Source of the DNA: Sphaerisporangium perillae
GTDB taxonomy: Bacteria; Actinomycetota; Actinomycetes; Streptosporangiales; Streptosporangiaceae
Direction of reading: 5' to 3'
Assembly: GCF_023276435.1 (NCBI RefSeq)
Contig: NZ_JALLPO010000005.1
Location: 1-64,000 of the forward strand
DNA length: 64,000 nt
The notes beneath the pieces were generated by a model. It had not been told where the DNA came from. It saw only the letters and a list, made by a program, of their open reading frames with translations, and ran no database searches. This document shows positions 52,605 through 63,067 of the stretch, piece after piece (positions within the stretch are counted from its first letter, which is position 1; each line of letters starts with the position of its first letter). The position numbers and the translations under genes were made by a program.

Positions 52605-52624
52605 GTACATAACGGAGCGTGAAC

Positions 52625-53236
52625 ATGCCTGTGACGTCGACCACGCGCCTGGCGGTCAGCGAAGCCTTCACCCGGCGGGAGGCGGCGGGACGCGGTCTCG
52701 CCGAGGACTCCGAGCGCATCACGCGCGCCTGCCGCGCCATGGCCGCGAGGTTCCACCGCGGCGGCAAGCTGATCGTCTTCGGCAACGGCGGCGCGGGCAC
52801 GGACGCCTCCCACATCGCGGTGGAGTTCATGCATCCGGTGATCGTGGGCAAGCGCGCGCTGCCGGCCATGGCGCTGAGCAACGACGCCGCCACGGTGTCC
52901 GCCGTCGGGGCGAGCGAAGGCTTCGGCGAGGTGTTCGCCCACCAGGTGCGCCACTGGGCCGACCCGGCGGACATGGCCCTCGGCGTCTCGCCGGACGGCT
53001 GGTGCGCCAACGTCCTCAAGGGGCTGGAGGCCGCCCACGAGCTGGGCCTGTTCACCATGGCCCTGCTGGGCGGCGACGGCGGCGCCATCGCGCGCAGCCC
53101 GGCCGTCGACCACGCGCTCGTCGCCCGCTCCGGCGACGCGGCGGTGGTGAAGGAGATCCACGTCACGATGTACCACGTCCTGTGGGAGCTGGTCCACGTC
53201 TTCCACGCCCGGACCCGTCCGGAGGCGGGCCGATGA
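52625..53236 (+). CDS. SIS-domain protein (GmhA-like), phosphate-loop degenerate
   Basis: Sugar-isomerase fold protein of 203 residues at the head of the hydrogenase operon, similar to sedoheptulose-7-phosphate isomerase GmhA. GNGGAGTDASHIAVEF (near 54) keeps the His and Glu that act in GmhA, and EIHVTMYHVLWEL keeps the late His pair. The phosphosugar loop, STSGNS in E. coli GmhA, reads SPDGWC here, so phosphate binding looks impaired. The ATG at 52625 has GGAG about 8 bases upstream; GTG 52619 is an alternative. Its stop overlaps the HypC-like start (ATGA). The role in hydrogenase biogenesis is unknown. Confidence 0.85.
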   Translation: MPVTSTTRLAVSEAFTRREAAGRGLAEDSERITRACRAMAARFHRGGKLIVFGNGGAGTDASHIAVEFMHPVIVGKRALPAMALSNDAATVSAVGASEGFGEVFAHQVRHWADPADMALGVSPDGWCANVLKGLEAAHELGLFTMALLGGDGGAIARSPAVDHALVARSGDAAVVKEIHVTMYHVLWELVHVFHARTRPEAGR

Positions 53237-53556
53237 CCGCATGCGCGGACGGCCCCGAGGGGGTGTGCCTCACCTGCTCCGACCAGGCCCTGCCCGCCCT
53301 CGTGGTGCGGCCCCTGGACGACGGGCTCGCGGTCGTGGAGATCGACGGCGTCCGCGAGGAGGTGAGCGTCGCGCTGGTCGACGCGGCCGCCGGCGACACC
53401 GTCCTGGTGCACGCCAAGGAGGCCCTCGCCGTCATCGCGAGAGCGGGCGACGTCCCGGAGGGGAGCGGCGCCCGCAGGGCGAACGACCACCCGAAGGGGA
53501 GCGGCGACCCGAGGCGGAGCGGGGACGCGAAGGGGGGCGGCGATGGCCACGGATGA
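53233..53556 (+). CDS. HypC/HupF-like hydrogenase assembly chaperone
   Basis: Small cytosolic protein of 107 residues resembling HypC/HupF, which carries the Fe(CN)2CO group between HypD and the large-subunit precursor. The beta-barrel pattern ALPALVVRPLDDGLAVVEID then VLVHAKEALAVI is clear. The cysteine motif is GVCLTCSD about 12 residues in, instead of the canonical N-terminal MCLxxP, so the mechanism may differ. A Gly/Arg/Asp-rich tail (about 78-107) is likely disordered. It is coupled to both flanking SIS genes by overlaps. The canonical HypC is encoded later at 61656. Confidence 0.8.
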   Translation: MTACADGPEGVCLTCSDQALPALVVRPLDDGLAVVEIDGVREEVSVALVDAAAGDTVLVHAKEALAVIARAGDVPEGSGARRANDHPKGSGDPRRSGDAKGGGDGHG

Positions 53557-54343
53557 GGAGGCGGAGGCGTCCTCCGAAGGGATACGCCGGCTGTATCCCT
53601 TCCTGCAGGGGCACGGCCACGCGCCCTCCGGCGAGCGCGACCGGCGTGCCGAGCGCGAGGACCCCGTCAACCGGTCCACCGAGACCAAGGCCGCCGAGAT
53701 CGTCCGCCTGCGCACGCAGGTGGCGGGGCTGCACGCCGACCGGCTCGCGGAGTGCGCGCAGGCGATGGCGGCGAGCTTCGCCGCGGGTGGCAGGCTCTTC
53801 GCGTTCGGCAACGGCGGGAGCAGCACCGACGCCCAGGAGGTGGCCACCGCCTACCTGCGTCCCCGGTACGGGCGGCCGCTGCCGGCCCTGTCGCTGACCT
53901 CCGACGTCGCCGTGGTCACCGCGCTCACCAACGACGTGGGGTTCGACGTCGTCTTCGCCCGGCAGATCGCGGCGCTCGGCAGGCCCGGCGACATCGCCTT
54001 CGGCCTGTCCGCCAGCGGCGGGTCGGCCAACCTCGTCCAGGCGTTCGAGGAGGCGTGGGGTCGGGGCCTGCTGACCGTCGGGCTGGCCGGCTACCAGGGG
54101 GGAAGGCTCGCCGAGCTGGCGGAGCTGGACGTCCTTCAGTACCTGTTCGTGATCCCGTCCTCGTCCGTGCACCGCATCCAGGAGGCGCAGACGACGGTCT
54201 ACCACGTGCTGTGGGAGGTCACGCAGCACCTGCTGCGCGACATGCCCGGCCGTCCGGACCGGCCCGATCAGGCGGATCGGGTTCACGTGACGGATCGCGC
54301 TGAGGGGGAGCGCGTCTCGAGGCTCATCGACACCGACCAGTAG
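53543..54343 (+). CDS. SIS-domain protein (GmhA-like), catalytic-residue degenerate
   Basis: Second SIS protein of 266 residues with a 60-residue N-terminal extension. It keeps a good phosphosugar loop (SASGGSANLV, near 158) and the GNGGSSTDA turn. The His and Glu that follow in GmhA are replaced: DAQEVATAY against DAMHFAEEL. It retains RIQ and a late His (VYHVLWEV). This is the reverse of the first SIS protein. It overlaps the HypC-like gene by 14 bases and ends 14 bases before the hydrogenase small subunit. A joint complex of the two SIS proteins is plausible. Confidence 0.85.
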   Translation: MATDEEAEASSEGIRRLYPFLQGHGHAPSGERDRRAEREDPVNRSTETKAAEIVRLRTQVAGLHADRLAECAQAMAASFAAGGRLFAFGNGGSSTDAQEVATAYLRPRYGRPLPALSLTSDVAVVTALTNDVGFDVVFARQIAALGRPGDIAFGLSASGGSANLVQAFEEAWGRGLLTVGLAGYQGGRLAELAELDVLQYLFVIPSSSVHRIQEAQTTVYHVLWEVTQHLLRDMPGRPDRPDQADRVHVTDRAEGERVSRLIDTDQ

Positions 54344-54357
54344 CGGGGGAGGCGGTT

Positions 54358-55434
54358 ATGGCCGCGATGACAGATTCAGCGGACAGGAGGGCGCGGGAGC
54401 AGGACGAACCCGTCGTCCACATCCTGTGGATCAACGCCGGCATGAGCTGCGACGGGGACTCCGTCGCGCTCACGGCGGCGACGCAGCCGGCGATCGAGGA
54501 CATCGTGCTCGGCGGGCTCCCGGGCCTGCCGGCGGTCGACGTCCACTGGCCACTGATCGACTTCCACAGCGGCCCGATGCAGGGCGCCGACGCCATGATC
54601 GACTGGTACTTCCTGGCGGCGCGAGGCGCGCTGGAGCCGTTCGTGCTCGTCGTCGAGGGATCGGTGCCGAACGAGTCGATCAAGCAGGAGGGGTACTGGT
54701 CCGGGTTCGGCAACAACCCCGAGACCGGCCAGCCGATGACCCTGCCCGAGTGGCTGGACCGGCTGGCGCCCCAGGCGACGGCCGTGATCGCCGCCGGGAC
54801 CTGTGCCACGTACGGCGGGATCCACGCCATGGCCGGCAACCCGACCGGCTGCATGGGCGTCGCCGACTACCTCGGCTGGGAGTGGCGGTCGAAGGCCGGA
54901 GTGCCGATCGTCAACGTGCCCGGCTGCCCGGTCCAGCCGGACAACATGTCCGAGACGCTCCTCTACCTGCTCTACCAGCTCAACGGGCAGGCCCCGATGA
55001 TCCCGCTGGACGAGGCGCTGCGCCCCACGTGGCTGTTCGGCCAGACCGTGCACGAGGGGTGCGACCGGGCCGGGTACTACGAGCAGGGCCAGTTCGCCGT
55101 CGAGTACGGCTCGCCGAAGTGCCTGGTCAAGATCGGGTGCTGGGGCCCCGTCGTGAAGTGCAACGTCCCCAAGCGCGGCTGGATGAACGGCCTCGGCGGC
55201 TGCCCGAACGTCGGCGGCATCTGCATCGCCTGCACGATGCCCGGCTTCCCGGACAAGTTCATGCCGTTCATGGACGAGCCCCCGGGGGCTCACGTGTCCG
55301 CGACGGTCAGCACGGTGTACGGCGGGATCGTCCGCAAGCTGCGCGGCATCACGCTTCGAACAGTCGACAAAGAGCCGAAGTGGCGGGCCAAGGGCCGCGC
55401 ACTGCTCACCGGTTACAAAGCGCCCTGGAGCTGA
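54358..55434 (+). CDS. hhyS: Group 1h high-affinity [NiFe]-hydrogenase small subunit
   Basis: Electron-transfer subunit of 358 residues holding three iron-sulfur clusters that take electrons from the large-subunit active site. The proximal-cluster region reads NAGMSCDGDS, with Asp where most hydrogenases have the second Cys; this is a known feature of the actinobacterial-type enzymes. Further ligands lie in AAGTCATYGG, VPGCPVQP, CDRAGYYEQG and the C-x-C rich CWGPVVKCNV...GGCPNVGGICIACTMPGFP. No Tat signal is present, unlike classical uptake hydrogenases. These enzymes oxidise atmospheric hydrogen during starvation. It lies 4 bases before the large-subunit gene. Confidence 0.95.
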   Translation: MAAMTDSADRRAREQDEPVVHILWINAGMSCDGDSVALTAATQPAIEDIVLGGLPGLPAVDVHWPLIDFHSGPMQGADAMIDWYFLAARGALEPFVLVVEGSVPNESIKQEGYWSGFGNNPETGQPMTLPEWLDRLAPQATAVIAAGTCATYGGIHAMAGNPTGCMGVADYLGWEWRSKAGVPIVNVPGCPVQPDNMSETLLYLLYQLNGQAPMIPLDEALRPTWLFGQTVHEGCDRAGYYEQGQFAVEYGSPKCLVKIGCWGPVVKCNVPKRGWMNGLGGCPNVGGICIACTMPGFPDKFMPFMDEPPGAHVSATVSTVYGGIVRKLRGITLRTVDKEPKWRAKGRALLTGYKAPWS

Positions 55435-55438
55435 CGAC

Positions 55439-57223
55439 ATGACCACCTCGAAGGACCAGAACCGCGACCTGGTCGAGATGGCCTGGGACCCGATCACGCG
55501 CATCGTGGGCAGCCTGGGCATCTACGCGAAGATCGACTTCGCGAAGAAGGAGGTCGTGGAGTGCCACAGCACCTCGTCGATCTTTCGTGGCTACAGCATC
55601 TTCATGAAGGGCAAGGACCCGCGCGACGCCCACTTCATCACCAGCCGCATCTGCGGGATCTGCGGTGACAACCACGCCACCTGCTCGGTGTACACGCAGA
55701 ACATGGCCTACGGCGTGCGCCCGCCCGCGCTCGCCGAGTGGATCATCAACCTGGGCGAGTCGGCCGAGTACATGTTCGACCACAACATCTACCAGGAGAA
55801 CCTGGTGGGGGTCGACTACTGCGAGAAGATGGTCCGCGAGACCAACCCCGGCGTGCTCGAGCTGGCCGAGCGCACCGAGTGCGCGCACGCCGAGCAGCAC
55901 GGCTACCGCACCATCGCCGACATCATGCGCTCACTGAACCCGCTGGAAGGCGAGTTCTACCGCGAGGCCCTGGTGATGAGCCGCCTCGCGCGGGAGATGT
56001 TCTGCCTGATGGAGGGCAGGCACGTCCACCCCTCCACGCTCTACCCGGGCGGGGTCGGCACGGTGGCCACGGTGCAGCTGTTCACCGACTACCTCACCCG
56101 GCTCATGCGCTACATCGAGTTCATGAAGAAGGTCGTGCCGATGCACGACGACCTGTTCGACTTCTTCTACGAGGCGCTGCCCGGGTACGAGGAGGTCGGC
56201 CGGCGGCGGGTGCTGCTGGGCTGCTGGGGGAGCCTCAACGACCCGGCGTACTGCGACTTCACCTACGACAACATGAACGCCTGGGGTCACAAGATGTTCA
56301 TCACCCCCGGCATCATCGTCGACGGCGAGCTGATCACCAACGACCTGGTCGACATCAACCTCGGCATGCGCATCCTGCTCGGCAGCTCCTACTACGAGGA
56401 CTGGGCCGACCAGGAGCCGTTCGTCACCCACGACCCGCTGGGCAACCCGGTCGACATGAGGCATCCCTGGAACCAGTACACGATCCCCCGGCCGCAGAAG
56501 CGCGACTTCGCCGACAAGTACAGCTGGGTCATGTCGCCCCGGTGGTTCGACGGCAAGGACATGCTGCCGCTGGACACCGGGGGCGGCCCCCTCGCCCGGC
56601 TGTGGTCGACCGCCCTGTCCAGGAGGGTCGACTTCGGCGGCATCGAGGCGACCGGGCACAGCGTGATCATCCGGCTGCCGAAGACCGCCACCAAGCCCGA
56701 GACGACGTTCGAGTGGAAGATCCCCGAACGCGACGGTCAGCTGATGTCCAACACGCTCGAGCGCAACCGGGCCCGCACCTACTTCCAGGCGTACGCCGCC
56801 GCGTGCGCGGTGTACTTCGCCGAGCAGGGGCTGGACGAGGTGCGAAGGGGACACACCCAGACCTGGGAGCCGTTCACGGTCCCAGAGGAGGCGATCAGCT
56901 GCGGGTTCACCGAGGCGGTGCGCGGCGTTCTCTCCCACCACATGGTGATCAGGAACGGCAAGATCGCCAACTATCATCCGTACCCGCCGACGCCCTGGAA
57001 CGCCAGCGTCCGCGACAGCTACGGAACGCCCGGGCCGTACGAGGACGCCGTGCAGAACACGCCGATCTTCGAGGAGAACCCGCCGGAGAGGTTCAAGGGC
57101 ATCGACATCATGCGCACCGTCCGCAGCTTCGACCCGTGCCTGCCGTGCGGGGTGCACATGTACCTCGGCAACGGCAAGGAACTCCGCAAGCTGCACAGCC
57201 CTCATGCGTTCGATGCCACCTGA
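55439..57223 (+). CDS. hhyL: Group 1h high-affinity [NiFe]-hydrogenase large subunit
   Basis: Catalytic subunit of 594 residues with the NiFe(CN)2CO centre. The L1 motif is RICGICGDNHATCS near 62-75. The L2 motif is FDPCLPCGVHMY near 563-574, both diagnostic of group 1h (formerly 5). The residues after the L2 His (about 22) form the C-terminal extension expected to be removed by the maturation protease encoded at 60619. The gene shares its operon with the small subunit, and its 3' end overlaps the NifU-like gene by 20 bases. Confidence 0.96.
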   Translation: MTTSKDQNRDLVEMAWDPITRIVGSLGIYAKIDFAKKEVVECHSTSSIFRGYSIFMKGKDPRDAHFITSRICGICGDNHATCSVYTQNMAYGVRPPALAEWIINLGESAEYMFDHNIYQENLVGVDYCEKMVRETNPGVLELAERTECAHAEQHGYRTIADIMRSLNPLEGEFYREALVMSRLAREMFCLMEGRHVHPSTLYPGGVGTVATVQLFTDYLTRLMRYIEFMKKVVPMHDDLFDFFYEALPGYEEVGRRRVLLGCWGSLNDPAYCDFTYDNMNAWGHKMFITPGIIVDGELITNDLVDINLGMRILLGSSYYEDWADQEPFVTHDPLGNPVDMRHPWNQYTIPRPQKRDFADKYSWVMSPRWFDGKDMLPLDTGGGPLARLWSTALSRRVDFGGIEATGHSVIIRLPKTATKPETTFEWKIPERDGQLMSNTLERNRARTYFQAYAAACAVYFAEQGLDEVRRGHTQTWEPFTVPEEAISCGFTEAVRGVLSHHMVIRNGKIANYHPYPPTPWNASVRDSYGTPGPYEDAVQNTPIFEENPPERFKGIDIMRTVRSFDPCLPCGVHMYLGNGKELRKLHSPHAFDAT

Positions 57224-57833
57224 GCCCGGCGGCGCCGCCCCCGGACGTCCGGAGGGGAAGCCGGTGCGCGTGCGCGAAGCGCAGGACGTCCGGGCGGTCG
57301 GAGAGCGCGTCGAGGGGCTGATCGACGAGCTCGGCACGCTCGCCGACCCGGTGACCAAAGCCCGCGCCGAGGAACTGGTGCGAAGCGTCGTCGAGCTGTA
57401 CGGGGCGGGCCTGGAACGCGTCATGGCCATCGTGGTCGAGAGCGGCGCGGCCGAGGTGCTCCGGCGGCTGACCGCCGACGAGGTCCTCTCCGGCCTGCTC
57501 GTCCTGCACGACCTGCACCCGCTCGGCACCGAGGAACGCGTCCGCGCGGCGCTCGACGACGTGCGCCCCGCCCTCGGCCTGCACGAGGGCGGAGTGGAGC
57601 TGCTCGGCGTGGAGGAGGGCGGGGTCGTGCGGCTACGCCTGTCCGGCAGCTGCCACGGCTGCGCGTCGTCGCAGGCCACGGTCACCGGCGCGATCGAGCG
57701 GGCCGTCCTGCGGGCCGCTCCGGAGGTGTCGCGGCTGGAGGTCGAGGGGGTGGCCGACACCACGTCGCCACTCCTGCAGATCCAGCACCGCCCGCCCGGC
57801 CCCTGCCCGGTCCCCGAGGAGGCGACCCCGTGA
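57204..57833 (+). CDS. NifU-like C-terminal domain protein, hydrogenase-associated
   Basis: Protein of 209 residues. The C-terminal part (about 130-195) is a NifU domain with the cluster-binding motif GSCHGCASSQATV. The N-terminal helical region (VGERVEGLIDELGTL, EELVRSVVELYGAGL) is of unknown function. It may carry or deliver Fe-S clusters for the hydrogenase small subunit. ATG 57204 overlaps the large-subunit end; ATG 57213 is an alternative. Similar genes directly follow the structural genes in other high-affinity hydrogenase loci. Confidence 0.85.
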   Translation: MRSMPPEPGGAAPGRPEGKPVRVREAQDVRAVGERVEGLIDELGTLADPVTKARAEELVRSVVELYGAGLERVMAIVVESGAAEVLRRLTADEVLSGLLVLHDLHPLGTEERVRAALDDVRPALGLHEGGVELLGVEEGGVVRLRLSGSCHGCASSQATVTGAIERAVLRAAPEVSRLEVEGVADTTSPLLQIQHRPPGPCPVPEEATP

Positions 57834-58591
57834 CGGGGGCCGCCGAGCCGGCGGGAGCGGCAGGGTTGCGGCGGTTCCGGGAGCCGCGGCGGCCGGCGGT
57901 GGAGGCGTGCGAGATGTGCGCCGAGCCCCTCGACGACCGTCACGGCCACGCCGTGAACGCCGAGAGCCGCGCGCTGCTGTGCATCTGCGTCGGCTGCCGC
58001 CTGCTGCTCTCGCACGGCGCGTCCGTCGCCCGGGGCCGCTACCGCGCCGTCCCCGAGCGCTACCTGTACGTCCCCTCGTTCCGGCTGACGGCGGCGGAAT
58101 GGGAGGAGCTGCAGATCCCGGTGCGCACGGCGTTCTTCTTCCACAATTCCACGCTCGGCCGGTACGTGGCGTTCTATCCCAGCCCCGGCGGCGCCACCGA
58201 GTCGCTGCTCGACCTGTCCGCCTGGGATCGCGTCCTCGCCGCCAACCCCGAGCTGCCCTCGGCCCAGCCGGACGTCGAGGCCTACCTCCTCGACCGCCGC
58301 CCGGACGGCTTCACCTGCCACCTGGTCCCGATCGACGCCTGCTACGAGCTGGTCGGCTTGGTCCGGGTGCACTGGAAGGGATTCCACGGCGGGCAGCAGG
58401 CGCAGGAGGCCATCGACGGCTTCTTCGACAAGCTCCGCCGCCGCGGCGAGGTCGTGGGGACCGGCGCCGCCGCGGGGGACGCGCACCGGGCAGAGCGGTC
58501 CGGGGACGCGCACCCGGCTGGGCCCGGGGACGCGCACCCGGCAGAGCGGTCCGCGGACGTGCGCGCGCGAGAGGCGGGCGACCGTGGCTGA
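57830..58591 (+). CDS. DUF5947-family hydrogenase-associated protein
   Basis: Protein of 253 residues typical of high-affinity hydrogenase clusters; biochemical role unknown. Cysteine pairs CEMC (near 25) and CICVGC (near 50) resemble a zinc or iron site. The core runs to about residue 205. The last 45 residues are repetitive and charged (GDAHRAERSGDAHPAG pattern), encoded by a 24-27 bp repeat, and are probably disordered. GTG 57830 overlaps the NifU-like stop (GTGA). Confidence 0.8.
   Translation: MTGAAEPAGAAGLRRFREPRRPAVEACEMCAEPLDDRHGHAVNAESRALLCICVGCRLLLSHGASVARGRYRAVPERYLYVPSFRLTAAEWEELQIPVRTAFFFHNSTLGRYVAFYPSPGGATESLLDLSAWDRVLAANPELPSAQPDVEAYLLDRRPDGFTCHLVPIDACYELVGLVRVHWKGFHGGQQAQEAIDGFFDKLRRRGEVVGTGAAAGDAHRAERSGDAHPAGPGDAHPAERSADVRAREAGDRG
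58475..58552 (+). repeat. 24-27-bp repeat, three copies, in the DUF5947 gene tail
   Basis: Copies at 58475-58501, 58502-58525 and 58526-58552 start GGGGACGCGCACC. The first and third are 27 bp and nearly identical; the middle is 24 bp. All preserve the reading frame. Confidence 0.85.
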
Positions 58592-59219
58592 GATCCGGTT
58601 CGAGTGCCGCGGCGTGCGCGCGGACCCGTACGGGGCCTTCCCGACGCTGCTGTTCGGGCTCGGCATCACGGCGCCCGACGAGAGCGCCGTGCACGCCATC
58701 GCGCTGCGCTGCCAGATCCGCGTCGAGCCCGGCCGCCGCCGGTACGGCACCGGCGAGACCGAGCTGCTCGCGGACCTGTTCGGGCACCCGTCCCGATGGG
58801 GCGAGACGGTCAAACCCCTGCAGTTCGCCAACGTCTCGTTCATGGTCCCGCGGTTCGCCGGCGCCACCGAGATCGAGCTGCCGGTGCCGTGCAGCTACGA
58901 CCTCGAGGTGGCCGCGGGGAAGTACCTCGCCTCGCTCGACGAGGGCGAGGTGCCGCTGCTCCTGCTGTTCAGCGGCACGATCTTCGCCAGGGCGGCCGGC
59001 GAGGGGTTCACCGTACGGCAGGTGCCGTGGGACTGCGAGGCCCGCCAGGGGCTGCCCGTCTCGGTGTGGCGGGAGCTGATGGACCGCTACTTCCCCGGGA
59101 GCGGCTGGCTGCGGCTGCACCGGGACACGCTGCGGGCGTTGCAACGGTACAAGTCCGACCGCGCCATGCCCACCTGGGACGAGGCGATGGAAGCACTGCT
59201 GAAGGAGGCGCGGGAGTGA
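58584..59219 (+). CDS. DUF6084-family hydrogenase-associated protein
   Basis: Protein of 211 residues with no known activity, recurrent in high-affinity hydrogenase clusters. Features include FECRGVRADPYGAFPTLLFG at the start, an all-beta central part, and a conserved-looking DRYFPGSGWLRLHRDTLRAL near 171-190. GTG 58584 overlaps the preceding gene by 8 bases, and its stop overlaps the next start (GTGA). No signal peptide or membrane helix. Confidence 0.8.
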   Translation: MAEIRFECRGVRADPYGAFPTLLFGLGITAPDESAVHAIALRCQIRVEPGRRRYGTGETELLADLFGHPSRWGETVKPLQFANVSFMVPRFAGATEIELPVPCSYDLEVAAGKYLASLDEGEVPLLLLFSGTIFARAAGEGFTVRQVPWDCEARQGLPVSVWRELMDRYFPGSGWLRLHRDTLRALQRYKSDRAMPTWDEAMEALLKEARE

Positions 59220-60622
59220 GCGTGCCGATGGAGATCGCCCGCAAGGTGGCCGACACCGTCCTGTACGAGGGGTACCTTCTCTACCCCTACCGTGCCTCGG
59301 CCGCCAAGAACCGGCTGCGCTGGCAGTTCGGGGTCCTGGTCCCCCCGGGGTACGCGGCGACGGCCGAGCCCTCGGCGAGCGTGACCGAGTGCCTCCTGGA
59401 AGGGGCGGCCAACGCGCTGCTGCGCCTGCGCCTGCGGTTCCTGCACGTCAAGGAGCGCCGGGTGGAACGCGCAAAGGACGGGCGCTACCTGCCGGTCCCT
59501 GAGCTGACGTGCGGCGGCACGACGCACCTCACCTTCGACGAGGCGACCGCGCGCGAGGTGGAGACCGTCCTGGCGGTGCCCCACCTGCTCGGCGCGGAGC
59601 GGGCGGTCACGGTGCGCCTGCCCGGGGACCGCTCCGAGGAGCCGATCGTGGCCGCAGCGGGAGAGGTGGTCACGGCCGGACCGGGAGACGCCGCCGTGGC
59701 CCGGCAGGGGGAGGTCGTCGGGCGGATCGTCGCCGAGCACCGGCCGGTGCGGGCCGTGCTCCGCGTCACGGCCGAGCGGCAGGACGGGCCGTACGGGCTG
59801 GTGAAGATCCGAGTCCGGGTGGAGAACGCCGCCGAGCCGCCGCCGGCGGACGCCACGCGTGAGGAGGCGCTGCGGCACTCCCTCGTCGCCGCCCACCTGC
59901 TGATCGGGGTGACGGCCGGGTCGTTCCTCTCGCTGATCGACCCCCCGGAATGGGCGCGCCAGCCCGCCACCGGCTGCCACAACGTCAACACCTGGCCGGT
60001 GCTCGTCGGCGAGCCCGGGCACCGTGACGTCGTGCTGTCGTCGCCGATCATCCTGTACGACTACCCCGACATCGCGCCCGAGAGCCCCGGCGACCTGTTC
60101 GACGGGACCGAGATCGACGAGATGCTCCACCTGCGGACGCTCACCCTCACCGAGGAGGAGAAGCGGGAGGCGCGGGCCACCGACCCGCGGGCCGCCGAGA
60201 TCATCCAGCGGGCCGGCGACCTGCCGCCCGAGCTGGTGGAACGCCTGCACGGCGCGATCCGCTATCTGGGCGAGCCCTCGAGCCCGCCCGCGCGCGCGCC
60301 GAGTGGCGATCCGGTGGCCGCGATGGAAGGGCCGCAGCCGGAGGACGGCGCCGGCAGCGTGACCGTCGCCGGGGTCGAGATCGCCAAGGGCAGCCGCGTC
60401 CGGCTGACGCCGGGGAAGCGGCGCGCCGACGCCCACGACATGTTCCTCGCCGGCAGGACCGCCCAGGTGGAGGCCGTGCTCCGTGACGTCGACGGGGGAC
60501 GCTACCTGGCCGTCACGCTGGACGACGACCTCGGCGCCGACCTGCACCGCTCACACGGGCGCTTCCTGTACTTCGCCCCCGACGAGGTGGAGCCGGTCGC
60601 CGGAGAGGGGACGGGCGCGTGA
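59216..60622 (+). CDS. Hydrogenase-associated protein of unknown function
   Basis: Protein of 468 residues beginning VSVPMEIARKVADTVLYEGY. The body has a likely all-beta/mixed fold (LLYPYRASAAKNRLRWQFG, FLSLIDPPEWAR, then TWPVLVGE and IILYDYPDIAPESPGDLFDG). A short C-terminal module follows a low-complexity linker (about 365-395) and reads KGSRVRLTPGKRRADAHDMF. Homologous proteins occur in the same position in other high-affinity hydrogenase loci. An assembly or stability role is inferred only from context. GTG 59216 is in the preceding stop. Confidence 0.8.
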   Translation: MSVPMEIARKVADTVLYEGYLLYPYRASAAKNRLRWQFGVLVPPGYAATAEPSASVTECLLEGAANALLRLRLRFLHVKERRVERAKDGRYLPVPELTCGGTTHLTFDEATAREVETVLAVPHLLGAERAVTVRLPGDRSEEPIVAAAGEVVTAGPGDAAVARQGEVVGRIVAEHRPVRAVLRVTAERQDGPYGLVKIRVRVENAAEPPPADATREEALRHSLVAAHLLIGVTAGSFLSLIDPPEWARQPATGCHNVNTWPVLVGEPGHRDVVLSSPIILYDYPDIAPESPGDLFDGTEIDEMLHLRTLTLTEEEKREARATDPRAAEIIQRAGDLPPELVERLHGAIRYLGEPSSPPARAPSGDPVAAMEGPQPEDGAGSVTVAGVEIAKGSRVRLTPGKRRADAHDMFLAGRTAQVEAVLRDVDGGRYLAVTLDDDLGADLHRSHGRFLYFAPDEVEPVAGEGTGA

Positions 60623-61308
60623 GGGTCCTGGTCGCGGGCGTGGGCAACGTCTTCCTCGGCGACGACGGCTTCGGGGTCGCCGTGGCCCGGCGTCTCGCCG
60701 CGACCGGCGTGCCCGAAGGCGTCACGGTGTCCGACTTCGGCATCCGGGGCGTGCATCTGGCCTACGAGCTGACCGGCGGCGGCCACGACCTCGCCATCCT
60801 GGTCGACACGGTGGCGCGGGGCGGCCCGCCCGGCACGCTGTACGTCCTGCGGCCGTCACCGCAGGAGGCTCCGGGCACCTTCGTCGACGCCCACGACATG
60901 AACCCGGACGCGGTCCTGGCGCTGGCGCGGACGCTGGGCGGCGAGATCGGGCCGGTCCTGCTCGTGGGATGCCGGCCCGCGGACGTCTCACCCGGCATGG
61001 AGCTGAGCCCGCCGGTCGCCGCCGCCGTCGGCAGGGCCGCGGACCTGGTACTGGAACTCATCGCGGAACAGGCCGCGACGGGAGGAATCGCGGAACAGGC
61101 CGCGACGGAGGCGGTCGCGGAAGAGGCCGCGATCGCAGGACAGGAGAGAAGACATGCTCAAGCGAATGATCACGCTCACGGTGCTGGTGGGGATCGGCGT
61201 CATGGTCTACCGGTCGATCCCGGACCTGAAGCGCTACATGCAGATCAGGAAGATGTGACCTCGCCGCCGGCCGGCCGCCGGCGACCGAAGCCGACCCAGA
61301 CGAGATGA
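60619..61308 (+). CDS. Hydrogenase maturation endopeptidase (HybD/HycI type) with C-terminal extension
   Basis: Nickel-dependent endopeptidase that trims the large-subunit C-terminus after nickel insertion. The family core occupies about residues 1-150: VAGVGNVFLGDDGFGVAV near 5-22 with the Asp ligand, LVDTVARGG near 62 and DAHDM near 91 with the His ligand. Family members are usually 150-170 residues, but this frame continues to 229. The tail is a 9-residue repeat (AEQAAT type) followed by translation through the downstream 34-codon gene in another frame. GTG 60619 overlaps the preceding stop. Confidence 0.85.
   Translation: MRVLVAGVGNVFLGDDGFGVAVARRLAATGVPEGVTVSDFGIRGVHLAYELTGGGHDLAILVDTVARGGPPGTLYVLRPSPQEAPGTFVDAHDMNPDAVLALARTLGGEIGPVLLVGCRPADVSPGMELSPPVAAAVGRAADLVLELIAEQAATGGIAEQAATEAVAEEAAIAGQERRHAQANDHAHGAGGDRRHGLPVDPGPEALHADQEDVTSPPAGRRRPKPTQTR
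61060..61140 (+). repeat. 27-bp tandem repeat, three copies, at the protease gene tail
   Basis: Period 27 from 61060, 61087 and 61114 (core TCGCGGAACAGGCCGCGA). It encodes nine-residue repeats in the extended C-terminus of the maturation protease. Confidence 0.85.
61154..61258 (+). CDS. 34-residue DUF6893-like membrane peptide, nested in the protease reading frame
   Basis: A small gene encoding MLKRMITLTVLVGIGVMVYR then SIPDLKRYMQIRKM, a single hydrophobic helix with a basic C-terminus. AGGAGAGAAGAC directly precedes the ATG, a strong ribosome site. It lies entirely within the extended 3' end of the maturation protease gene, in a different frame. It resembles the small DUF6893 proteins seen in actinobacterial hydrogenase loci. 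It may anchor or tune the hydrogenase at the membrane. Confidence 0.75.
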   Translation: MLKRMITLTVLVGIGVMVYRSIPDLKRYMQIRKM

Positions 61309-61315
61309 GGTAATC

Positions 61316-61708
61316 GTGCACGAATACGGGATCGCGGAGTCGATTCTCGCCGCGGTGGAGGGCAGGGCGGACGGCCGGCGGGTGCGCCGGGCACGGGTGC
61401 AGGTGGGGGCCCTGCTCCGTGTCGCCGAACCCTCGATCAACGACGCGTGGGCCATGGTGACCGAGGGCACCGTGGCCGAGGGCGCGCGCCTGGACCTGGT
61501 CAGTCTCCCGGTGCGGATCACCTGCCGGGAGTGCGGGAACACGGCCACCTCGGTGGACCCCTACGCCGTCTGCCCGGCCTGCGGGGACACCGACGTCGAC
61601 ACCGAGGGCGGCGACGATCTCGTCCTCGAATCCATTCAGCTCGCGGAGGCGACTCATGTGCCTGGGGATTCCCGGGGAGATCGTGGAAATCCTGTCGGAT
61701 CGTCCTGA
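61316..61708 (+). CDS. hypA: HypA nickel-insertion accessory protein
   Basis: Zinc-binding nickel metallochaperone of 130 residues that, with HypB, inserts nickel into the large subunit. The N-terminal MHEYGIAES carries the nickel-binding His2, so the GTG at 61316 is the correct start. The zinc site is CRECGNT near 72 and CPACGDT near 89. After the family end (about LESIQLAE, residue 109) the frame continues for 20 residues over the start of HypC. HypB is not in the window. Confidence 0.93.
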   Translation: MHEYGIAESILAAVEGRADGRRVRRARVQVGALLRVAEPSINDAWAMVTEGTVAEGARLDLVSLPVRITCRECGNTATSVDPYAVCPACGDTDVDTEGGDDLVLESIQLAEATHVPGDSRGDRGNPVGSS

Positions 61709-61934
61709 CCTGGCGAAGGTCGACGTCAGCGGGGTCCGCCGGGCGATCAACATCGGCCTGCTGGAGGGGGAGCCGCTCGCGCCCGGCGACTGGATCCTCA
61801 TCCACGTGGGCTTCGCCCTGTCCAAGATCGACGAAGCGGAGGCCAGGTCGGCGCTCGACTTTCTGGAGAGCATCGGCCAGGCGTACGAGGACGAGATGGA
61901 CGCCCTCCGCGAATCCATGATCGAACAGGGGTGA
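61656..61934 (+). CDS. hypC: HypC hydrogenase assembly chaperone
   Basis: Canonical HypC of 92 residues beginning MCLGIPGEIVEI, whose Cys2 is required to carry the iron group from HypD to the large subunit. The barrel core (KVDVSGVRRAINIGLLEGE, PGDWILIHVGFALSKIDE) is complete. GGAGG lies 5-6 bases before the ATG. It overlaps hypA by 53 bases. A second, atypical HypC-like gene is at 53233 in the same locus. Confidence 0.95.
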   Translation: MCLGIPGEIVEILSDRPDLAKVDVSGVRRAINIGLLEGEPLAPGDWILIHVGFALSKIDEAEARSALDFLESIGQAYEDEMDALRESMIEQG

Positions 61935-61939
61935 CGCCG

Positions 61940-63067
61940 ATGCGGTTCGTCGACGAGTACCGCGACGCGGGCAAGGCGCGGGCGCTGGCCGCCCGGATCG
62001 CCGCGCTGTGCGAGCCGGGACGTTCGTACAAGTTCATGGAGGTGTGCGGAGGGCACACCCACACGATCTACAAGCACGGGCTGGAGGACTACCTGCCCGG
62101 GCAGATCACGCTGGTGCACGGCCCGGGCTGCCCCGTCTGCGTCATCCCGATGGGAAGGGTGGACGACGCGATCCACATCGCGGAGCAGCCCGGCGTGATC
62201 ATGACGTCGTTCGGCGACATGATGCGCGTTCCCGGCGGCAACGGGTCGTTCCTGGACGCCAAGGCCCGGGGCGCGGACATCCGCATGGTGTACTCGCCGC
62301 TGGACGCCCTGAAGATCGCTCGTGACAACCCGGACAAACGGGTGGTCTTCCTGGCCATCGGGTTCGAGACCACGGCGCCCTCCACGGCGATGACCGTCCT
62401 GCGGGCCGCCGCCGAGCGCATCGGCAACTTCTCGGTCTTCTGCAACCACGTGACGATCATTCCGGCGATCAAGGCGATCCTGGACTCTCCCGACCTGCGG
62501 CTCGACGGGTTCATCGGCCCCGGCCACGTCTCGACGGTGATCGGCTGCCGGCCGTACGGCTTCATCGCCCGCGACTACGGCAAGCCGCTGGTGGTCGCCG
62601 GGTTCGAGCCGCTGGACGTGCTGCAGTCCGTCTACCAGAACCTCGTCCAGCTCGCCGAAGGGCGGGCGGAGGTGGAGAACCAGTACGGGCGGGTGGTGCC
62701 CTGGGACGGCAACGCCAAGGCGCTCGCGGTGATCAACGAGGTGATGGAGTTGCGCCCGCACTTCGAATGGCGCGGGCTCGGGTTCATCTCCGAATCCGCC
62801 CTGTGCGTGCGGGAGCCGTACGCCGAGTTCGACGCCGAGCGGATCTTCCGCATCCCGGGCGGGCGCGTCGCCGACCCGAAGGCCTGCCAGTGCGGCGAAG
62901 TGCTCAAAGGCGTGCTGAAGCCGTGGGAGTGCAAGGTGTTCGGCACGGCCTGCACTCCCGAGACGCCGATCGGCACCTGCATGGTGTCCTCCGAGGGCGC
63001 CTGCGCCGCGTACTACAACTTCGGCCGGTTCTCGCGCGACCGGGTCAAGGAGGCGACACGGTCTTGA
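61940..63067 (+). CDS. hypD: HypD hydrogenase maturation protein
   Basis: Fe-S scaffold protein of 375 residues on which the Fe(CN)2CO unit is built, in complex with HypC and HypE. Conserved motifs: MEVCGGHTHTIYKHG near 34, HGPGCPVC near 61, FCNHVTIIPA near 170, GFEPLDVL near 220, and the C-terminal cluster cysteines in CQCGEVLKG through CKVFGTACTPETPIGTC. The ATG at 61940 follows AGGGG by 7 bases. GTG 61931 in the hypC stop is an alternative. Confidence 0.95.
   Translation: MRFVDEYRDAGKARALAARIAALCEPGRSYKFMEVCGGHTHTIYKHGLEDYLPGQITLVHGPGCPVCVIPMGRVDDAIHIAEQPGVIMTSFGDMMRVPGGNGSFLDAKARGADIRMVYSPLDALKIARDNPDKRVVFLAIGFETTAPSTAMTVLRAAAERIGNFSVFCNHVTIIPAIKAILDSPDLRLDGFIGPGHVSTVIGCRPYGFIARDYGKPLVVAGFEPLDVLQSVYQNLVQLAEGRAEVENQYGRVVPWDGNAKALAVINEVMELRPHFEWRGLGFISESALCVREPYAEFDAERIFRIPGGRVADPKACQCGEVLKGVLKPWECKVFGTACTPETPIGTCMVSSEGACAAYYNFGRFSRDRVKEATRS

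Follow-up and report, generated by a model that had tools for sequence, protein, structure and literature searches.

Genes ahead of the hydrogenase subunits

On the forward strand of the window (the whole stretch of 64,000 nucleotides analysed here) three overlapping genes lie directly upstream of those for the two subunits of a [NiFe]-hydrogenase. The first, SIS1 (52625..53236, with a possible alternative GTG start at 52619), encodes a SIS-fold protein with a putative metal triad of H63, E67 and H184 accompanied by H70 and H191 (its own numbering); the second, HypC2 (53233..53556), a HypC-like protein; and the third, SIS2 (53543..54343), another SIS-fold protein, with an N-terminal LYPFL motif encoded at 53594-53608. 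SIS1 and HypC2 share four bases (ATGA), and HypC2 and SIS2 share 14, in agreement with the initial annotation, which had placed both SIS genes in overlap with a HypC-like gene just before the hydrogenase subunits. The small (54358..55434) and large (55439..57223) subunit genes are followed on the same strand by those for a NifU-domain protein (57204..57833), a DUF5947 protein (57830..58591), a DUF6084 protein (58584..59219), a maturation protease of the HycI family (60619..61308), a canonical HypC beginning with Met-Cys-Leu-Gly-Ile-Pro-Gly (61656..61934) and a HypD of the SIS-associated type described below (61931..63067); the cluster also includes a HypA gene. The large subunit shares 75% identity over 580 residues with its counterpart in a C. 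necator pHG1 locus that carries a SIS gene and which we take to be of group 1h.

SIS1 and SIS2 match the Pfam family SIS_2 (PF13580) with E-values of 7.8e-16 and 2.8e-18 (58.8 and 66.7 bits, gathering cut-off 27), and their scores against the NCBIfam gmhA model, 110.0 and 124.3 bits, fall short of its cut-off of 209.45. A third SIS gene, which is GmhA-like, lies elsewhere in the genome of the window (C102), as does a weaker match (C26); a search of this genome for HypX gave no match at E <= 1e-40. HypC2 resembles the HypC/HupF/HoxL proteins in its match to Pfam HupF_HypC (PF01455; E 2.2e-10, 40.9 bits against a gathering cut-off of 28.5) and in ending with a V-L-V-H-A stretch; it differs from them in lacking the N-terminal Met-Cys and the C-terminal helix region and in carrying a CxxC near its N-terminus (C-x(7)-C-L-T-C-S-D in the window), and its 22.8 bits with NCBIfam hypC_hupF lie below the cut-off of 48. 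Of 61 HypC2 domains with scores of at least 45 bits, C-x-T-C-[SGA]-D is present in 57 and a near variant with CxxC in the remaining four; the Met-Cys is missing from all 16 HypC2 rows aligned.

The presence of SIS genes beside [NiFe]-hydrogenase genes is already published. A HypD-HypE-GmhA cluster obtained with DENSE/STRING for C. acetobutylicum in 2011 was presented as an association whose why and how were unclear, in an account that, in its accessible text, makes no mention of a SIS family, a split site or a link to HypX (PMC3231954); gmhA is asterisked at group 1h loci in the legend of Fig. 5 of a 2018 article (PMC5900883), and a SIS cluster, number 37, figures in Table 1 of a 2025 neighbourhood study (PMC12727194). 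The excerpts of PMC5900883 and PMC12727194 contain neither a function nor a residue analysis of the hydrogenase-linked SIS proteins, and in the accessible portions of the open-access literature, subscription papers and preprints aside, we found no function assigned to them.

Active-site residues of the two SIS proteins

Residue positions are given hereafter in E. coli GmhA numbering, as obtained by alignment. SIS1 of the window has H61, E65 and H180, with S-P-D-G-W-C at the place of the phosphate loop S-T-S-G-N-S, Ala at S55 and Lys at Q172, whereas SIS2 keeps the loop (S-A-S-G-G-S), S55, Q172 and also H180, with Glu at H61 and Ala at E65; the alignment agrees with the residue calls of the initial annotation and finds the complete GmhA set in neither chain. 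This partition is conserved. In 30 pairs from the order of the window, H61, E65 and H180 of SIS1 and S55, S121, S124 and Q172 of SIS2 are each present in 30/30, S119 of SIS2 in 28 (Thr in the other two) and T120 in 29. The same holds for a wide set of 126 SIS1 and 125 SIS2 domains from at least 10 phyla (at least 140 bits and more than 110 residues; smaller domains were left out, and the members are not all independent), where SIS1 has H61 in 125/126, E65 in 126/126 and H180 in 125/126 (one gap), retains S55 in only six and S124 in one, and shows no Ser in the seven most frequent letters of position S121. The counterpart figures for SIS2 (n=125) are 122 for S55 and S119, 123 for S121 and 124 for T120, S124 and Q172, while the seven most frequent letters at H61 do not include His (Asp in 90, Glu in 16), nor those at E65 Glu (Asp in 78). 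The split is imperfect: H180 persists in 121 of the 125 SIS2 domains, and Gln stands at Q172 in 82 of the 126 SIS1 domains, chiefly in fused forms. The residue split and the trio reported for one locus recur in other hydrogenase loci, and the pattern points to a strong and lasting constraint on each half, with the SIS1 triad and the SIS2 loop and Gln nearly invariant, so that 'degenerate' is not the best description of these proteins. The sole exception at H61 among the 126 SIS1 domains, an Arg, belongs to a second SIS1/SIS2 pair of one genome (G090; L047:7869-9159), which is located after nitrate reductase genes (alpha, beta and delta, by Pfam) and not after hyp genes.

In GmhA structures the zinc ligands are H61, E65 and H183 from one monomer together with Q175 from the adjacent one, so that the metal site spans two subunits (PMC5387315). 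Because of this geometry, as given in the parts of that paper available, the conserved residues of the SIS pair can be read as one inter-subunit site made of the SIS1 triad and the SIS2 Gln, which a SIS1:SIS2 assembly would rebuild as a single composite metal site. A composite site of the GmhA type, one of the two options of the initial annotation, fits both the conservation and the published structures; the simple split has no need for the H180 of SIS2, and a description of GmhA active sites as containing residues from three chains (PMC11056994) also complicates it. The reciprocal site (triad positions of SIS2 with the Gln of SIS1) changes jointly: of 125 loci, 78 combine Asp/Asp in SIS2 with Gln in SIS1, 44 have neither, three have the Gln without the Asp and none the Asp without the Gln. 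We considered this covariation of Q172 and D65 as evidence of contact and keep it as suggestive only, since it appears to amount to about one event on the tree. The LYPFL-type motif, a possible docking peptide, is common to SIS2 and the single SIS proteins of proteobacteria; it occurs in 30/30 SIS2 of the order set and in 115/131 by pattern, with variants in eight of the ten misses printed, and is missing from 10 rows of GmhA and other SIS proteins.

Proteobacteria have one SIS protein carrying all the site residues (7/7), as do the five GmhA proteins aligned; the full set is broken only by an Ala at S124 in one of the single SIS and by a Thr at S119 in one of the GmhA. Homologues with every catalytic residue in place, named in the initial annotation as evidence against its proposal, do therefore exist to the letter, in a sister clade encoded in the same hyp operons that looks more like the unsplit form than like a refutation; the second kind of contrary evidence that it named, a pairing not conserved across hydrogenase loci, is not what we find. 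Two further histidines are almost invariant in SIS1 (126/126 and 125/126) and present in the single SIS (7/7), whereas five GmhA proteins have Gly/Ser and Glu/Asp at these positions (0/5). The resulting histidine-rich site (H61, E65, H180 and the two family histidines) might suit an iron donor or metallochaperone that brings Fe to HypCD, and the Cys cluster of HypC2 could receive the iron. We regard this explanation as improbable, given that hydrogenases linked to HypX need iron as well, which leaves the alternation of SIS and HypX described below unexplained, and that it finds no use for the phosphate loop of SIS2.

Linkage, descent and alternation with HypX

Among the 80 named loci (L069-L148), the best 80 of 567 relatives, SIS1 is present in 80/80 and SIS2 in 79/80, the remaining locus (L104) ending on its contig; hyp genes accompany them in 76/80 (all except L114, L116, L122 and L137), hypE directly precedes SIS1 in 55/80 and HypX occurs in 0/80. 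These loci come from Acidobacteriota, Bacillota, Deinococcota, Gemmatimonadota, Chloroflexota, Verrucomicrobiota, Actinomycetota, Planctomycetota and Eremiobacterota, as well as from Rhodothermales. SIS1 and SIS2 are fused in 74/80 of these best 80 of 567 relatives, as they are on a Thermus plasmid, a proportion in which fused forms are over-represented because a fused Thermus protein was the lead query of the scan. HypC2, present in 28/30 loci of the order set, is found in 19/80 of the same best 80 of 567 relatives and can be ruled out as a universal component; it is fused to SIS1 in 9/132 loci, one of them on a plasmid of Mycobacterium intracellulare. The single SIS lies directly upstream of hypD on the proteobacterial plasmid records examined, in the order hypF-hypC-SIS-hypD-hypE in C. 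necator, A. carboxidovorans, Bradyrhizobium, Mesorhizobium, Sphingopyxis and Novosphingobium and hypF-SIS-hypD-hypE in Methylocystis. Judged by identity, 1h-like, 2a-like and MBH-like enzymes all occur among the linked hydrogenases, under names that we use as presumed labels and not as HydDB assignments, and the group 1h context to which the initial annotation had confined the pair proves too narrow.

Several relatives have the trio followed by hypF (L036-L042, L048), and hypF comes next after SIS2 in 12/79 of the named loci (best 80 of 567). On these grounds one might take the unit for a metabolite sensor, or for a feed of carbamoyl phosphate to HypF, with the SIS2 loop binding a phosphorylated metabolite and gating or channelling the synthesis of the cyanide ligands. 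We think this very unlikely: HypF is needed alongside HypX too, so the alternation would again go unexplained, and hypF is found as a neighbour less often than hypE, hypD or a glutaredoxin gene.

The presence of SIS1 follows that of the hydrogenase. Across 150 genomes of the order, 61 have the large subunit and 57 of these have SIS1, compared with 1/89 genomes lacking the large subunit, in a SIS1-positive list of 58 genomes compiled by hand; of the four with the large subunit and no SIS1 (G006, G013, G114 and G128), G013 and G128 show weaker SIS matches on short contigs. In the phylum of the window 41/346 genomes are SIS1-positive at E <= 1e-42, likewise by a hand-compiled list, and HypD is found in 38 of them. 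Genome-wide absences carry little weight throughout, because the scans scored only some of the candidates in each genome (for instance 10 for HypX and 26 for SIS). In a tree of 67 rows the hydrogenase-linked SIS proteins form one clade apart from 10 others (five GmhA and five other SIS) with support of 100/100, within which SIS1 (100/100), SIS2 (100/97) and the single SIS (100/99) are each well defined, and the sister relationship of SIS1 and SIS2 reaches only 84/77. The likeness to GmhA (sedoheptulose-7-phosphate isomerase) lies in the fold and in the site residues of the single SIS; the family is distinguished from it by its own clade, the two extra histidines, the LYPFL-type motif, the hyp-operon context and, in most phyla, a site divided over two subunits or halves. 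That these are ordinary heptose or sugar-phosphate enzymes beside the hydrogenase by chance, as their annotation as SIS or phosphoheptose isomerase, their fold and their distant similarity to GmhA could suggest, is hardly credible and already contradicted by the tree, by the hyp genes in nearly all named loci and by the tracking of the hydrogenase, and no GmhA site can be built from either protein of the window alone; we discard both chance neighbourhood and heptose metabolism. The HypD proteins seem to be of a distinct type as well, with 62-100% identity to the HypD of the window when SIS-linked (n=76), against 48-54% when HypX-linked (n=4) and 48-49% when linked to neither (n=3); in a quick tree of 37 HypD, 30 SIS-linked sequences fall on one side of a branch with an SH-aLRT of 84, near long branches.

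HypX, a formyl-THF decarbonylase, supplies O2-tolerant hydrogenases with their CO ligand. It combines formyltransferase-like and enoyl-CoA-hydratase-like parts and makes the CO ligand in air, according to the accessible text of a recent review (PMC12134894), and it has a fold unrelated to that of SIS and belongs to different Pfam families. What the two have in common is their setting, in hyp/hydrogenase loci, in alternation at hypD places and upstream of the same type of hydrogenase, an alternation that is new with respect to the initial annotation. At 96 plasmid hypD places, among the matches listed (132 places) and with near-identical strains included, HypX lies within 15 kb at 29, SIS at 19, both at none and neither at 48; the chance of this zero overlap would be 4e-4 if the places were independent, which they are not. 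Nine plasmids carry both HypX and SIS, each gene at its own hypD. On pHCG3 of A. carboxidovorans a SIS gene stands beside a large subunit that shares 80% identity over 375 residues with HoxG of C. necator, whose operon has HypX, and a search of pHCG3 gave no HypX match. The large subunit occurs in 54 of the 121 genomes of the genus of G172, with HypX within 15 kb in 41; in the other 13, HypX lies elsewhere in four and has no match in nine. One genome of this genus, G577, has the SIS1-SIS2 pair and gave no HypX match. Its trio lies immediately ahead of the small subunit, and its HypD shares 81% identity with the HypD of the window, as against 48-51% for the HypD of the HypX loci of the genus. 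In those loci HypX itself may likewise come ahead of the small subunit (L162, L187) or have another position within the cluster (L163, L186, L191). On a large-subunit tree of 29 rows (29/33 loci retained) the HypX label changes at least three times. Taken over these comparisons, the SIS unit appears to take the place of HypX in hyp loci.

Three weak matches to the SIS1 model in the genus of G172 (G513, G531 and G538) were examined as counter-examples and rejected, as they score 233-250 bits as GmhA-type against 106-163 with the hydrogenase-linked profiles and have no hyp genes within 16 kb. Exclusion of HypX and SIS over whole genomes is false: 9/61 large-subunit genomes of the order have a HypX match, none of them within 15 kb of the large subunit (eight on other contigs, and in G147 1.1 Mb away). 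Four of these nine HypX loci were inspected. Eight HypX homologues (L157-L161, L165-L167; about 42-47% identical to C. necator HypX) have surroundings free of hyp and hydrogenase genes over 12-19 kb and, by this context, represent a HypX-like enzyme outside hydrogenase maturation; because HypX-like genes also occur outside hydrogenase loci, we claim exclusion at the level of the locus only. Eight of the 54 large-subunit genomes in the genus of G172 (one a fragment) have neither HypX nor the SIS pair, which together with half of the plasmid places leads us to a third source or to a dispensable step. Hydrogenase loci of this type with neither factor (L169 of G114, L179-L185) may depend on a third source of CO or on no such source at all.

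A putative role in hydrogenase maturation

The fixed linkage, the complementary conservation, the fusions, the HypD type and the alternation with HypX are products of comparison, and on them we base a reading to which we give slightly better than even odds (about 0.55), namely that SIS1, SIS2 and HypC2 would constitute one [NiFe]-hydrogenase maturation unit that does the job of HypX at HypC-HypD. SIS1 and SIS2 would descend, by a single ancient duplication, from a SIS protein linked to hydrogenases and related to GmhA, and would work as an obligate hetero-oligomer or as a single fused chain, with a metal site formed by His/Glu/His from SIS1 and Gln from SIS2 and a phosphate-binding loop provided by SIS2 alone. 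The unit would act at the HypC-HypD scaffold and provide the iron of hydrogenases made aerobically with CO, either as the ligand itself or as a bound precursor, by a chemistry different from that of HypX. The same job as HypX is the simplest proposal because an unrelated protein is found repeatedly in its place, with a HypD type of its own, and the unit is probably an oxic maturation factor at HypCD that takes part in CO-ligand supply. The complex, its metal, binding to HypCD, the supply of CO and the substrate are what we infer from these comparisons.

The SIS2 loop and the kinship with GmhA, whose mechanism proceeds through an enediol in the part of the literature available (PMC7705670), point to a sugar phosphate and to a reaction through an enediol, and the substrate is probably a small phosphorylated ketose or aldose. 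A phosphorylated substrate, which the loop favours, counts to some extent against equivalence with HypX, whose substrate is formyl-THF. As a tentative proposal, which we consider less likely than not, one can go further and see in the SIS unit a second, HypX-independent CO synthase, whose composite metal site would form the enediolate of a small sugar phosphate, in the manner of GmhA, and cleave it, possibly with O2, so that the CO would pass directly to the iron of HypC/HypC2-HypD. Nickel acireductone dioxygenase offers a parallel for an O2-dependent cleavage that releases CO; we know of no SIS enzyme that makes CO.

A unit without chemistry, which would hold or shield Fe(CN)2CO on HypCD as an assembly or O2-protection factor and for which the metal site would be structural, is in our opinion unlikely. 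The same operon evidence speaks for it, as do the fusions of SIS1 to a HypC-like domain and the protective or storage role described, in the accessible text, for HoxV/HupK (PMC12134894). Against it, the near-invariant triad, phosphate loop and Gln across at least 10 phyla are hard to understand without a ligand or a reaction, and HypX, the partner in the alternation, is an enzyme. The second option of the initial annotation, non-catalytic assembly factors, can be kept as to assembly, given that the pair lies in hyp maturation operons, and not easily as to 'non-catalytic', with both halves so strongly constrained and two extra histidines nearly invariant.

A 2025 review, in the sections available, names as an open question where the CO ligand comes from when HypX is not involved, with the stress on anaerobes (PMC12134894). 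Many of the aerobic H2 scavengers sampled here have the SIS unit instead of a hydrogenase-linked HypX, so that a role in CO supply can be tested on two or three specific genes. On our reading, heterologous production of O2-insensitive hydrogenases would need the genes of the SIS unit. The pair would also be one of the rare clear examples of paralogues that share a single active site, here in at least 10 phyla; if it should make CO, a sugar-isomerase fold would have become a carbonyl-ligand enzyme with an active site split over two subunits.

Two minor observations concern the fused genes. On a Sulfobacillus plasmid (L062:9878-11094) the fused SIS gene is spread over two reading frames around its 3' part, where it has no annotation, the result of a sequence error or of a broken gene. 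A small glutaredoxin-like gene lies directly 3' of the fused SIS gene in 50/80 of the loci L069-L148 (best 80 of 567), and on the Thermus plasmid such a gene (L061:11124-11384) is annotated as a Uxx-star (seleno)protein.
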